A stretch of 14,804 bases of DNA from Candidatus Adiutrix sp. (lineage in GTDB: Bacteria > Desulfobacterota > Desulfarculia > Adiutricales > Adiutricaceae): the NCBI GenBank assembly GCA_031273445.1, contig JAISRV010000073.1, forward strand, positions 1 to 14,804, written 5' to 3'. The translations under genes were made by a program, and so were the position numbers. How positions within the stretch are numbered: position 1 is the first letter of the stretch; the number at the start of each line of letters is the position of its first letter. Below are positions 10,424-13,958 of this stretch, one piece after another. The notes beneath the pieces are model-generated. The model was not told the origin of the DNA. It saw only the letters and a list, made by a program, of their open reading frames with translations, and did no database searches.

Positions 10424-11329
10424 ATGGAATTTTTCATCCAACAACTGATCAACGGCCTGGCGGTGGGCGGCATTTACGCCCTCATCGCCCTGGGCTACAC
10501 CATGGTCTACGGGGTGCTGAAGCTCATCAACTTCGCCCATGGCGACCTTTTCACCCTGGGCGCCTATCTGGGCTTCACCTTTCTGGTCTCCTGCGGGCTG
10601 ACCGGGGCCGTCGGCGTGGGGCCGGCCGTTGTGATCTGCGTCATTCTGGTCATGGGCTTTTCGGCCCTGGCCGGGCATATTTTGGAAAGGGCCGCCTATA
10701 GGCCGTTGCGTAAAAGCGGGCGGCTGTCGGCCGTGGTCTCGGCCCTGGGGGCCAGCATTTTTCTGCAAAACGCCGTCATGCTGATCTGGGGCGCCAAGGG
10801 CTTGGCCTACCCGGCGGACCTGTTGCCCCGCGTGGTCGTTTCCATCGCCGGCCAGCCGGTTCCCCTGATCAGGGTGGTGGTTTTCGTCTCCAGCCTGGCG
10901 GTCATGGTCGGCCTCTATCTGTTCATCAACCGCACCCGCATGGGCATGGCCATCCGGGCTTCGGCCATTGATCAGGGCGCGGCCAAACTGATGGGCATCG
11001 ACGTACGGCGCGTCATCGCCGTCGTTTTTATGATCGGCCCGGCCCTCGGCGGCCTGGCCGGGGTCATGGTCGGGGCCTGCTACGGCCAGATCACTTTCAC
11101 CATGGGCCAGCTTTACGGCCTGAAAGCCTTCACCGCGGCCATTATCGGCGGCATCGGCAACATCCCGGGGGCCATGCTGGGCGGGATTCTGCTGGGGGTC
11201 GTCGAAGCCTTCGGCGCGGCTTACATCTCCGTGGCCTGGAAAGACGCCATCGCTTTTTTCGTCCTTATCCTGATTCTGGTGATTCGCCCCACGGGCATAC
11301 TGCCGGAACGCGTGGCGGAAAAACTGTAA
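10424..11329 (+). CDS. livH: Branched-chain amino-acid ABC transporter permease LivH
   Basis: The 301-residue protein is a multi-pass inner-membrane permease, one half of the LIV importer channel. It starts with the hallmark QQLINGLAVGGIYALIALG (6-24) followed by MVYGVLKLINFAHGD, standard for LivH, and ends with a transmembrane helix and the IRPTGILPERV tail. The coupling region with INRTRMGMAIRASAIDQGAAKLMGID contacts the ATPases. It begins 5 bp after the binding-protein stop and its TAA overlaps the livM ATG (TAATG at 11327-11331), so coupled translation is likely. Confidence 0.95.
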   Translation: MEFFIQQLINGLAVGGIYALIALGYTMVYGVLKLINFAHGDLFTLGAYLGFTFLVSCGLTGAVGVGPAVVICVILVMGFSALAGHILERAAYRPLRKSGRLSAVVSALGASIFLQNAVMLIWGAKGLAYPADLLPRVVVSIAGQPVPLIRVVVFVSSLAVMVGLYLFINRTRMGMAIRASAIDQGAAKLMGIDVRRVIAVVFMIGPALGGLAGVMVGACYGQITFTMGQLYGLKAFTAAIIGGIGNIPGAMLGGILLGVVEAFGAAYISVAWKDAIAFFVLILILVIRPTGILPERVAEKL

Positions 11330-12317
11330 TGACCCAGACCAGCCTCCGGGCTAAAATGAGAAAGTCAGCAAAAACGCCGAGCTTCCGGCTACTGATCCAG
11401 GCTGTTTTAGCGGCGCTCTTTTTCTGCGCGCCTCTGTTCGGGGCGGGCCCCTATTGGCTGGGGGTGTTGAACCAGGTCGGGCTTTACGCTCTTCTGGCCC
11501 TGTCGCTGAACATCATTCTGGGCCACGCCGGCATGTTCCATATGGGCCATGCGGCTTTTTTCGCGGTGGGGGCCTATGTCACGGCCATCCTCAATACCGT
11601 TTACGACTGGCCCGTGCTGGTCACGCTGCCGGCGGCCGGCCTGGCGGCCGGCCTTTTCGCCCTTTTGGCGGCCGCGCCCATAATTCATCTGCGGGGCGAC
11701 TACCTTTTAGTGGTGACCATCGGCATCGTGGAAATCGTGCGCATCGCTCTGGTCAACGACATCTTCGGCCTGACCGGAGGGGCCAACGGCATCGTGGGCA
11801 TTGATCGGCCGGTTTTTTTCGGCCTCAGATTGACCAGGCCCTGGCAGTTTTTCTATCTTATCTGGGGTTTCACCGCCGTCTCCCTGGTTTTGTTCCACTG
11901 GTTGGAAAACTCCCGTTTCGGGCGGGCCCTGAACTTCATCGCGAAGACCCTGTGGCCGCCGAAGGCGTCGGGGTCGACGCCGCCCGCTACAAGCTCATGG
12001 CCTTCGTCATCGGGGCGGTCTGGGCCGGCTTCGCGGGCACTTTCTACGCCAGCCAGATGCGCACCATTTCTCCTGGTTCCTTCAATTTCTGGGAATCGGT
12101 GGTGCTGTTCACCATCGTCATTTTGGGCGGCAGCGGCAACCAGAAAGGGGTTCTCCTGGGCGCCTTTCTGGTGGTCGGCCTGCCGGAGCTTTTTCGCGGC
12201 CTCCAGGACAGCCGCCTGTTGTTTTTCGGCGCGGCCCTGGTGCTGATGATGATTTTTCGCCCCCAGGGGCTTCTGCCGCCCAAAGGGCGCGTCTACCGCC
12301 TGCCTTTCAAGACATGA
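11329..12317 (+). pseudogene. livM: Branched-chain amino-acid ABC transporter permease LivM, frameshifted
   Basis: The gene starts at ATG 11329, overlapping the livH stop, and reads as LivM up to codon 204 (ATC at 11938-11940; LNLSLNIILGHAG-like and GDYLLVVTIGIVEIVR-like regions are clear). It then leaves frame: the frame-1 reading continues with 101 non-homologous residues to a stop at 12244-12246. In the -1 frame the expected LivM sequence resumes at once (REDPVAAEGVGVDAARYK) and runs to the TGA at 12315-12317. Restoring one C (ATC-CGC-GAA for ATC-GCGAA) would give a 329-residue protein of normal length. No slippery heptamer is present, so programmed frameshifting is unlikely. Either the gene is truly broken, losing its C-terminal helices, or one base is missing from the sequence. 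If read intact, its stop overlaps the first ATG of the repeat that precedes livG. Confidence 0.85.
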
Positions 12318-12540
12318 TGCTGTTATCCTTAAATAATCTGACCAAGAGCTTCGGCGGTTTGGCGGCTGTGGCGGGAGTTTTTAAGCCAGGCTCATGATGC
12401 TGTTATCCTTAAATAATCTGACCAAGAGCTTCGGCGGTTTGGCGGCTGTGGCGGGAGTTTTTAAGCCAGGCTCATGATACTGTTATCCTTAAATAATCTG
12501 ACCAAGAGCTTCGGCGGTTTGGTGGCTGTGGCGGGAGTTT
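12314..12540 (+). repeat. 80-bp tandem repeat of the livG start region (two full units plus partial third)
   Basis: Units 12314-12393 and 12394-12473 are identical. The third, 12474-12540, is the real start of livG and matches over 67 bp with two differences (12479 A for G, 12523 T for C). Each full unit opens with ATG ATG CTG TTA and carries the first 22 or so livG codons. It then ends in a 13-bp tail (TTAAGCCAGGCTC) that is absent from livG. Because 80 is not a multiple of three, each unit gives a 27-residue mini-ORF whose TGA overlaps the next ATG (ATGA). The same overlap joins livM to unit 1 and unit 2 to livG. Confidence 0.9.
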
Positions 12541-13235
12541 CTTTTGAAGTCGAACGGGGCGACGTGGTCGGGCTCATCGGCCCCAACGGCGCGGGCAAAA
12601 CCACTGTTTTCAACCTCATCACCGGGGCCAGCCGGCCTGACGACGGCCACATTTTTTTCGACGGCCACGGTCTGGAAGGCTTAAAGCCCCATCGCATCGT
12701 CTACCTGGGTCTGGCCCGCACCTTCCAGACCATTCGCCTCTTTCCCAAATTATCGGTGTTGGAAAACGTTCTGTCCGGAAGCCATTGCCGGATGAAGTCG
12801 AGTTTTGTGGCCTCGCTGCTGCGCTTGCCGGCCCAGCGGCGGGAAGAGAAAGAGGCCTTGGCCTCGGCCATGCGGGAACTGGATTTCGTCGGCTTGACCG
12901 ACTTCTGGCGGGCTGAAGCCGGGAGCCTGTCTTACGGCGATCAAAGGCGGCTGGAAATCGCCCGGGCCCTGGCCACCGAGCCGAAGCTCATCGTCCTTGA
13001 CGAACCGGCCGGCGGCATGAACGACCAGGAAACTTTGGAGCTGCGCGGCCTCATCGCCCGCATCAAAGCCCGGGACATCACCATAATTCTTATTGAACAC
13101 GATATGGGCTTCGTCATGAAGGTTTGCAATAAAATCGTGGTCATGGAAAACGGAACCGTGATCGCCCGGGGCCGGCCCGAGGAGATTCAAAAAAACCCCA
13201 AGGTCATCGAGGCCTATCTGGGTGTGGATGATTGA
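12474..13235 (+). CDS. livG: Branched-chain amino-acid ABC transporter ATP-binding protein LivG
   Basis: LivG is one of two cytoplasmic ATPases powering the importer. The 253-residue product has Walker A GPNGAGKT (36-43), Q-loop Q85 in ARTFQTIRLF, signature LSYGDQ (152-157), Walker B LIVLDEP (172-178) and switch histidine H209. The signature has GDQ where GQQ is frequent in LivG. ATG 12474 is the third ATG-ATR start in a tandem repeat; the two earlier copies cannot produce the full protein because their frames close after 27 codons. The best upstream ribosome site is weak (AGG at 12468-12470). Initiation may therefore rely on termination of the preceding mini-ORF at the ATGA overlap. livF follows 9 bp after the stop. 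Confidence 0.95.
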   Translation: MILLSLNNLTKSFGGLVAVAGVSFEVERGDVVGLIGPNGAGKTTVFNLITGASRPDDGHIFFDGHGLEGLKPHRIVYLGLARTFQTIRLFPKLSVLENVLSGSHCRMKSSFVASLLRLPAQRREEKEALASAMRELDFVGLTDFWRAEAGSLSYGDQRRLEIARALATEPKLIVLDEPAGGMNDQETLELRGLIARIKARDITIILIEHDMGFVMKVCNKIVVMENGTVIARGRPEEIQKNPKVIEAYLGVDD

Positions 13236-13244
13236 GGCGCGGCC

Positions 13245-13958
13245 ATGCTGGAGCTCAGGAACCTGAAGGTGAAATACGGGCCGGTGGAGGCCCTGCACGG
13301 GCTGAACCTGACTGTGAACGAAGGCGAACTGGTGACCATTCTGGGGGCCAACGGGGCCGGCAAGAGCACCACCCTGATGGCCGTCAGCGGTTTGGCGGCG
13401 GTTTCCGAGGGTGAGATACGCTTCAACGGCCGGCGCATCGACACCCTGCGCAGCCACCAGATCGTGGGCCTGGGCATCACCCAGGCGCCGGAAGGCCGCC
13501 GGGTCTTCGGCCCTTTGACAGTGGCCGAAAATCTGGCCCTGGGGGCCTTTTCCAAAAATGACCGCTTGGCTATGGCCAAACGCCTGGCCTGGGTCTATGA
13601 CCTCTTTCCCCGTCTTTTCGAGCGCCAGGCCCAGATGGCCGGAACCCTCTCCGGCGGCGAGCAACAGATGCTGGCCATAGGCCGAGCCCTGATGGCCGAA
13701 CCCAGGCTGCTTTTGCTGGATGAACCCAGCCTGGGCTTGGCCCCCCTCCTGGTCAAATCCATTTTTCACACCGTCAGGGCCATTAACCAGGCCGGGGTGA
13801 CCGTCATACTGGTGGAGCAAAACGCCCGGGCCGCCCTGAAACTGGCCGACCGGGCTTACGTAATGGAAGTCGGCCGCTTGGTCATGGAAGGCCCCGCGGC
13901 CGACCTCCTGCACAACCCCCAAGTGCAAAACACCTACCTGGGCGGCCTGAGCTCGTGA
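13245..13958 (+). CDS. livF: Branched-chain amino-acid ABC transporter ATP-binding protein LivF
   Basis: The 237-residue product is the second ATPase of the LIV importer. Motifs are Walker A GANGAGKS (34-41), Q-loop in ITQAPEGRRVFGPLTV (78-93, the LivF-specific form), signature LSGGEQ (135-140), Walker B LLLLDEP (155-161) and LVEQN (189-193), where glutamine replaces the switch histidine as is normal for LivF. GAGG at 13234-13237 lies seven bases before the ATG and overlaps the livG stop. This is the last gene of the operon. The 90 bp after it show no strong intrinsic terminator, only a short GACTGA/TCAGTC pairing near the stop. Confidence 0.95.
   Translation: MLELRNLKVKYGPVEALHGLNLTVNEGELVTILGANGAGKSTTLMAVSGLAAVSEGEIRFNGRRIDTLRSHQIVGLGITQAPEGRRVFGPLTVAENLALGAFSKNDRLAMAKRLAWVYDLFPRLFERQAQMAGTLSGGEQQMLAIGRALMAEPRLLLLDEPSLGLAPLLVKSIFHTVRAINQAGVTVILVEQNARAALKLADRAYVMEVGRLVMEGPAADLLHNPQVQNTYLGGLSS

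Follow-up and report, generated by a model that had tools for sequence, protein, structure and literature searches.

A three-unit tandem array at the livM–livG junction of a Candidatus Adiutrix genome, probably a recent and neutral duplication of overlapping gene ends

Introduction

Short tandem duplications that arise by slippage or unequal exchange consist of near-identical copies, two or three in number and tens to hundreds of base pairs long. The array described here, which lies at the junction of livM and livG, resembles such duplications in its near-identical copies, its absence from relatives, and the drift between its copies. It differs from them in that it spans a gene overlap in a phase that preserves the stop/start joins.

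The locus also resembles gene pairs translated by termination-reinitiation, as these are described in two reports (PMC6728339 and PMC10666635), in carrying ATGA at each join and in encoding subunits of one transporter; moreover, its livM–livG overlap is ancestral in the genus. Unlike those pairs, it has two mini-ORFs between the genes and an upstream gene that is frame-broken as assembled. PMC10666635 reports that the final 15 nt of the upstream gene sufficed in one tested Escherichia coli pair and that, in native pairs, reinitiation was nearly or fully lost across gaps of about 22 nt in Haloferax or about 38 nt in E. coli, whereas other studies cited there found that coupling persisted over gaps of 73 nt and 150–850 nt. 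A literature search covering titles and the openings of abstracts found, among the papers listed, no report of a tandem gene-junction repeat acting on reinitiation.

Organization of the livM–livG junction

The window, the whole stretch of 14,804 nucleotides analyzed here, is one entire contig of a draft genome that comprises 439 contigs and is 71.67% complete. Candidatus Adiutrix MAGs and Deltaproteobacteria bacterium Smac51, which we take to come from termite guts, are the closest named relatives of this genome. As in a Liv ABC transporter operon, the genes are arranged in the order binding protein, livH, livM, livG, and livF, and all six scanned pieces had a Liv model as their top NCBIfam match. 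The locus differs from such an operon in that all scores were under the curated cut-offs (297.6 versus 362 for LivG) and livM is split. Full-length open frames, best matched in NCBIfam by Liv models, encode LivG, LivH, LivF, and the binding protein. livG (12474–13235, forward strand) encodes the 253-residue ATPase of a branched-chain amino acid ABC transporter, and its first 67 nt are similar to the repeated unit.

At the junction of livM and livG, an 80-bp unit was present three times head to tail (12313–12552, forward strand). This array had the highest TRF score (442) of the seven rows in the window. Copies 1 and 2 (12313–12392 and 12393–12472, respectively) are 100% identical, each consisting, in the register that the repeat finder assigned, of 67 nt resembling the livG start and a 13-nt tail (12381–12393 and 12461–12473, respectively). 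Copy 3 (12473–12552) is the true livG start; it is 88% identical to the other copies over 80 bp and matches them up to 12540. Counted from the ATG, the 67 nt at 12314–12380 and 12394–12460 match 12474–12540 in livG apart from one difference in each of two codons: codon 2 is ATG instead of ATA and codon 17 is GCG instead of GTG, so that Met stands for Ile and Ala for Val, respectively.

Because the duplicated segment carries ATGA and its length of 80 bp leaves a remainder of 2 when divided by 3, each copy contains a mini-ORF that ends on the next start. Mini-ORF 1 (12314–12397, forward strand) and mini-ORF 2 (12394–12477, forward strand) each encode 27 residues with the same translation, MMLLSLNNLTKSFGGLAAVAGVFKPGS followed by a stop, and their stop codons overlap the ATG of copy 2 and the ATG of livG, respectively. 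The 4-nt overlap ATGA was thus found at all three joins, namely those between the downstream frame of livM and mini-ORF 1, between the two mini-ORFs, and between mini-ORF 2 and livG. At the two later joins the upstream frame, that of mini-ORF 1 or 2, reaches the overlap; the frame that starts at the livM start codon falls short of the first. The earlier note on this DNA had described two exact 80-bp copies ahead of the real livG start, an out-of-phase unit yielding 27-residue LivG-like peptides that stop on the next ATG, and two substitutions common to both copies (Met for Ile and Ala for Val), and the repeat analysis and codon positions given above bore out this description.

Frame break in livM and reliability of the assembly

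The permease gene livM (11329–12317, forward strand) was found to be one base short near 11,940 in comparison with all five of the genus relatives compared. As assembled, the frame that begins at its start codon stops at 12246, 67 nt upstream of mini-ORF 1, and the downstream frame ends at 12317, forming ATGA with mini-ORF 1. We take this break to be either a sequence error or the mark of a pseudogene. The earlier sequence-only reading had not included it.

Frame breaks were surveyed with 357 ORFs from a relative's sample, which gave 90 query-contig pairs, 19 of them usable. Two of the 19 were broken, livM included, a proportion that does not represent a genome rate because the relative's sample contained one stretch chosen to contain the liv region. 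Another gene, at L107:2017–3953 (G000:C35), also showed a changed frame, with about 30 nt between its matched parts, when compared with an open frame of 666 residues in the genus member G003.

Errors of a fragmented draft in the copy number of the array, in livM, or in both are an unlikely explanation. The large number of contigs, the incompleteness of the genome, and the one further frame break among the 19 usable pairs favor it, and so does the fact that the matches listed included no near-identical LivM or LivG of another assembly, so that nothing confirms the sequence. Neither the best 120 of 3477 matches to a relative's LivM nor the best 120 of 7834 matches to LivG included another assembly of the species; a search with the downstream half of livM, in which length limits excluded full-length LivM, likewise gave none among the matches listed. 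The closest LivM proteins among the matches listed (P0121 and P0122) matched the downstream half at 94% identity and the upstream half at about 86%, and the closest other LivG among the best 120 of 7834 was 91% identical. On the other hand, copies that differ from livG at two sites and an exact tail confined, in the genome as assembled, to the array are not what one would expect a plain misjoin to produce, and an assembler using words longer than the longest exact repeat (86 bp) would resolve the array. The contig names of several relatives contain k119.

Comparison with related loci

A LivG match at an E-value of 1e-60 was obtained in 58 of 60 genomes including this one (57 of the 59 others). 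The junctions of the 29 best-scoring loci from other genomes (L010–L038), all of the same family, were oriented by strand and compared. An upstream copy of the livG start was present in none of the 29 (threshold, 42 of 61 positions identical; best value, 33). Tandem copies in related species, as would be expected of a variable-number tandem repeat switch, were likewise found at none of these loci. The four-base ATGA overlap between the livM stop and the livG ATG was found in all five genus relatives that have the operon, and the spacing of the two genes was variable elsewhere in the family. These comparisons indicate that the overlap is ancestral and that the array is new.

Residue 17 of LivG was Val at all 29 related loci, and residue 2 was Ile in all five genus relatives. 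At the Val site, 60 LivG proteins, the one studied here among them, included one with Thr and one with Ala; one further protein was without its N-terminus. The changed residues therefore belong to copies 1 and 2, with livG retaining the conserved ones.

One member of the genus (G001, 91% complete) had no livG match at an E-value of 1e-60, and the other five genus members searched had one. This genome also gave no DNA match to the livM–livG junction or to the livM stretch; its liv operon may have been lost or may be missing from the assembly.

The absence of liv matches in G001, together with the one-base break of livM relative to five of five relatives, is in line with decay of the operon, in which livM would be a real pseudogene and selection on livG translation would be relaxed, so that the array persists. 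We regard such decay as possible but rather doubtful, since the break could be a sequencing error and the other four liv genes are full-length open frames best matched by Liv models. It would be compatible with neutral duplication.

Origin of the tail and mode of duplication

The exact 13-nt tail was found only within the array in the genome as assembled (71.67% complete), in agreement with the earlier statement that it occurs neither in livG nor at the livM end. With up to one mismatch, a 15-nt form was likewise confined to the array in this genome; with one mismatch, it occurred at five places in four other genus members. The reversed 15-nt form, used as a control, gave one match in this genome and one in G003. 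A 16-nt form with up to two mismatches was found in the two array copies and at one other site. Copying of the tail from elsewhere in the genome was rejected, as the near-exact searches gave the array and, at up to two mismatches, that one site.

The similarity of the tail to livM ends was not significant: a fraction of 0.157 of shuffled tails scored as well against the genome's own livM end, and fractions of 0.349 to 0.980 did so against the livM ends of five genus relatives. Since the livM end would be its natural source and no further exact instance of it turned up in this genome as searched, the tail may be an older livM end, an inference given that the similarity is not significant. The livM end before copy 1 differs from the tail, which counts against this origin because a simple duplication should have left the tail there; this origin therefore requires that livM later underwent a small in-frame change.

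To see how common arrays of this kind are, 68 pieces of this genome with 423,094 bases in total (60 of the 439 contigs, the window, and seven query-matching pieces) were analyzed with TRF. Twelve arrays with a period of at least 40 were found, the livM–livG array included, and six of them had periods of 71–84. The periods divided by 3 left remainders of 2, 1, and 0 in five, three, and four arrays, respectively. In G003, 19 TRF rows with a period of at least 40, several of them overlapping, were obtained from twenty stretches (400 kb). Tandem arrays of this sort are common in this genome. One of them, at L073:12819–13156 (G000:C30), is a 169-bp tandem duplication that lies out of frame over an apparent gene start; it has a truncated upstream copy of the N-terminus and no ATGA chain to its gene. 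When this region was compared with seven genomes of the genus, matches were found in this genome and G003 only, and the match in G003 spanned 13090–13400, covering the gene and the final part of the second unit.

We consider it probable that the livM–livG array is a recent tandem duplication across the overlap of the two genes, probably neutral, in which the stop/start joins are incidental. An ancestral overlap together with the absence of the array from 29 related loci points to recent duplication of a junction that already overlapped. In the first step, the livM end (probably) and the first 67 nt of livG would have been duplicated in tandem by slippage or unequal exchange, recently in this lineage. 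The copy would then have drifted, with Ile changing to Met and Val to Ala, and the drifted copy and its tail would have been duplicated once more. Two identical units followed by a slightly different third fit two such rounds. The suggestion made earlier that an older, diverged duplicate was recopied more recently held up, as the two copies are identical and share two changes while the ancestral residues persist in livG. Such a duplication would produce a series of linked stop/start joins with about one chance in three.

For livG expression, the array is probably either neutral or mildly harmful, without an evolved role. This reading draws on how common such arrays are and on the absence of this one from relatives, two substitutions being too few for a selection test; the neutral alternative that had been offered beforehand fits best. 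Counting against neutral duplication, both mini-ORFs are still open and the ATGA joins are intact, recent though the array is.

Translational coupling through the mini-ORFs

The earlier note had proposed that ribosomes pass from livM through the two mini-ORFs to livG and so tune LivG relative to the permeases. This proposal found no support, given the ancestral overlap, the absence of the array from all 29 related loci, the lack of a sign of selection, and the early end of the livM frame. In a translational divider of this kind, reinitiation at mini-ORF 1, mini-ORF 2, and livG would lose a share of ribosomes at each step, and the number of units would set the ratio of LivG to permease. All three joins are ATGA, the unit includes the 13-nt tail and the join, and, according to PMC10666635, such overlaps support termination-reinitiation in E. 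coli and Haloferax; coupling reported there across 73 nt and 150–850 nt means that the 67-nt gap after livM need not be fatal. Nevertheless, we judge this arrangement improbable. The livM frame is broken and ends 67 nt short of the chain; unless the break is a sequence error, the supply of ribosomes from livM to the chain would probably be poor. In the native pairs tested in the same paper, coupling was nearly abolished by gaps of about 20–38 nt. The array is restricted to this genome among the loci compared, and both changes in the copies hit amino acids conserved among livG relatives. That copy number serves as a quickly adjustable control of the subunit ratio, with each duplicated junction lowering the reinitiating flow into livG, is more improbable still.

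Under neutral duplication, the mini-ORFs could, in principle, still relay translation to livG if ribosomes behave as in E. coli and Haloferax, and such serial reinitiation would most likely lower LivG. The locus is a natural example in which a duplicated overlapping junction by itself yields a chain of stop/start joins, and it could be used as a ready test of serial reinitiation; it does not show that the bacterium uses such a chain. It also cautions that a neat translational device may be the by-product of a short duplication beside a possibly damaged gene.

RNA and regulatory signals

Short ORFs that contain several codons for Leu and Val, placed ahead of a gene for a branched-chain amino acid transporter, would suit leader peptides that regulate livG by attenuation. 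The residues of the mini-ORFs are, on the contrary, those of the LivG N-terminus. RNA folding was predicted to be weaker than in shuffled versions (z = +1.94; stability equalled or exceeded in 198 of 200 shuffles), and no match at Rfam gathering thresholds was found in the window. In the scanned region 12200–12600, there was no terminator-like site inside the array; the sole such site, at 12226–12246, lies upstream of it, with 0.7 expected in shuffled sequences. Regulation by leader peptides is hardly credible on these grounds, and an attenuator or structured RNA was rejected because no alternative terminator or RNA structure was found between the mini-ORFs and livG.

A weak sigma-70-like match (9 of 12 positions) was observed at 12309–12337, at the start of copy 1 only, with 0.1 expected in shuffles of 12200–12600.
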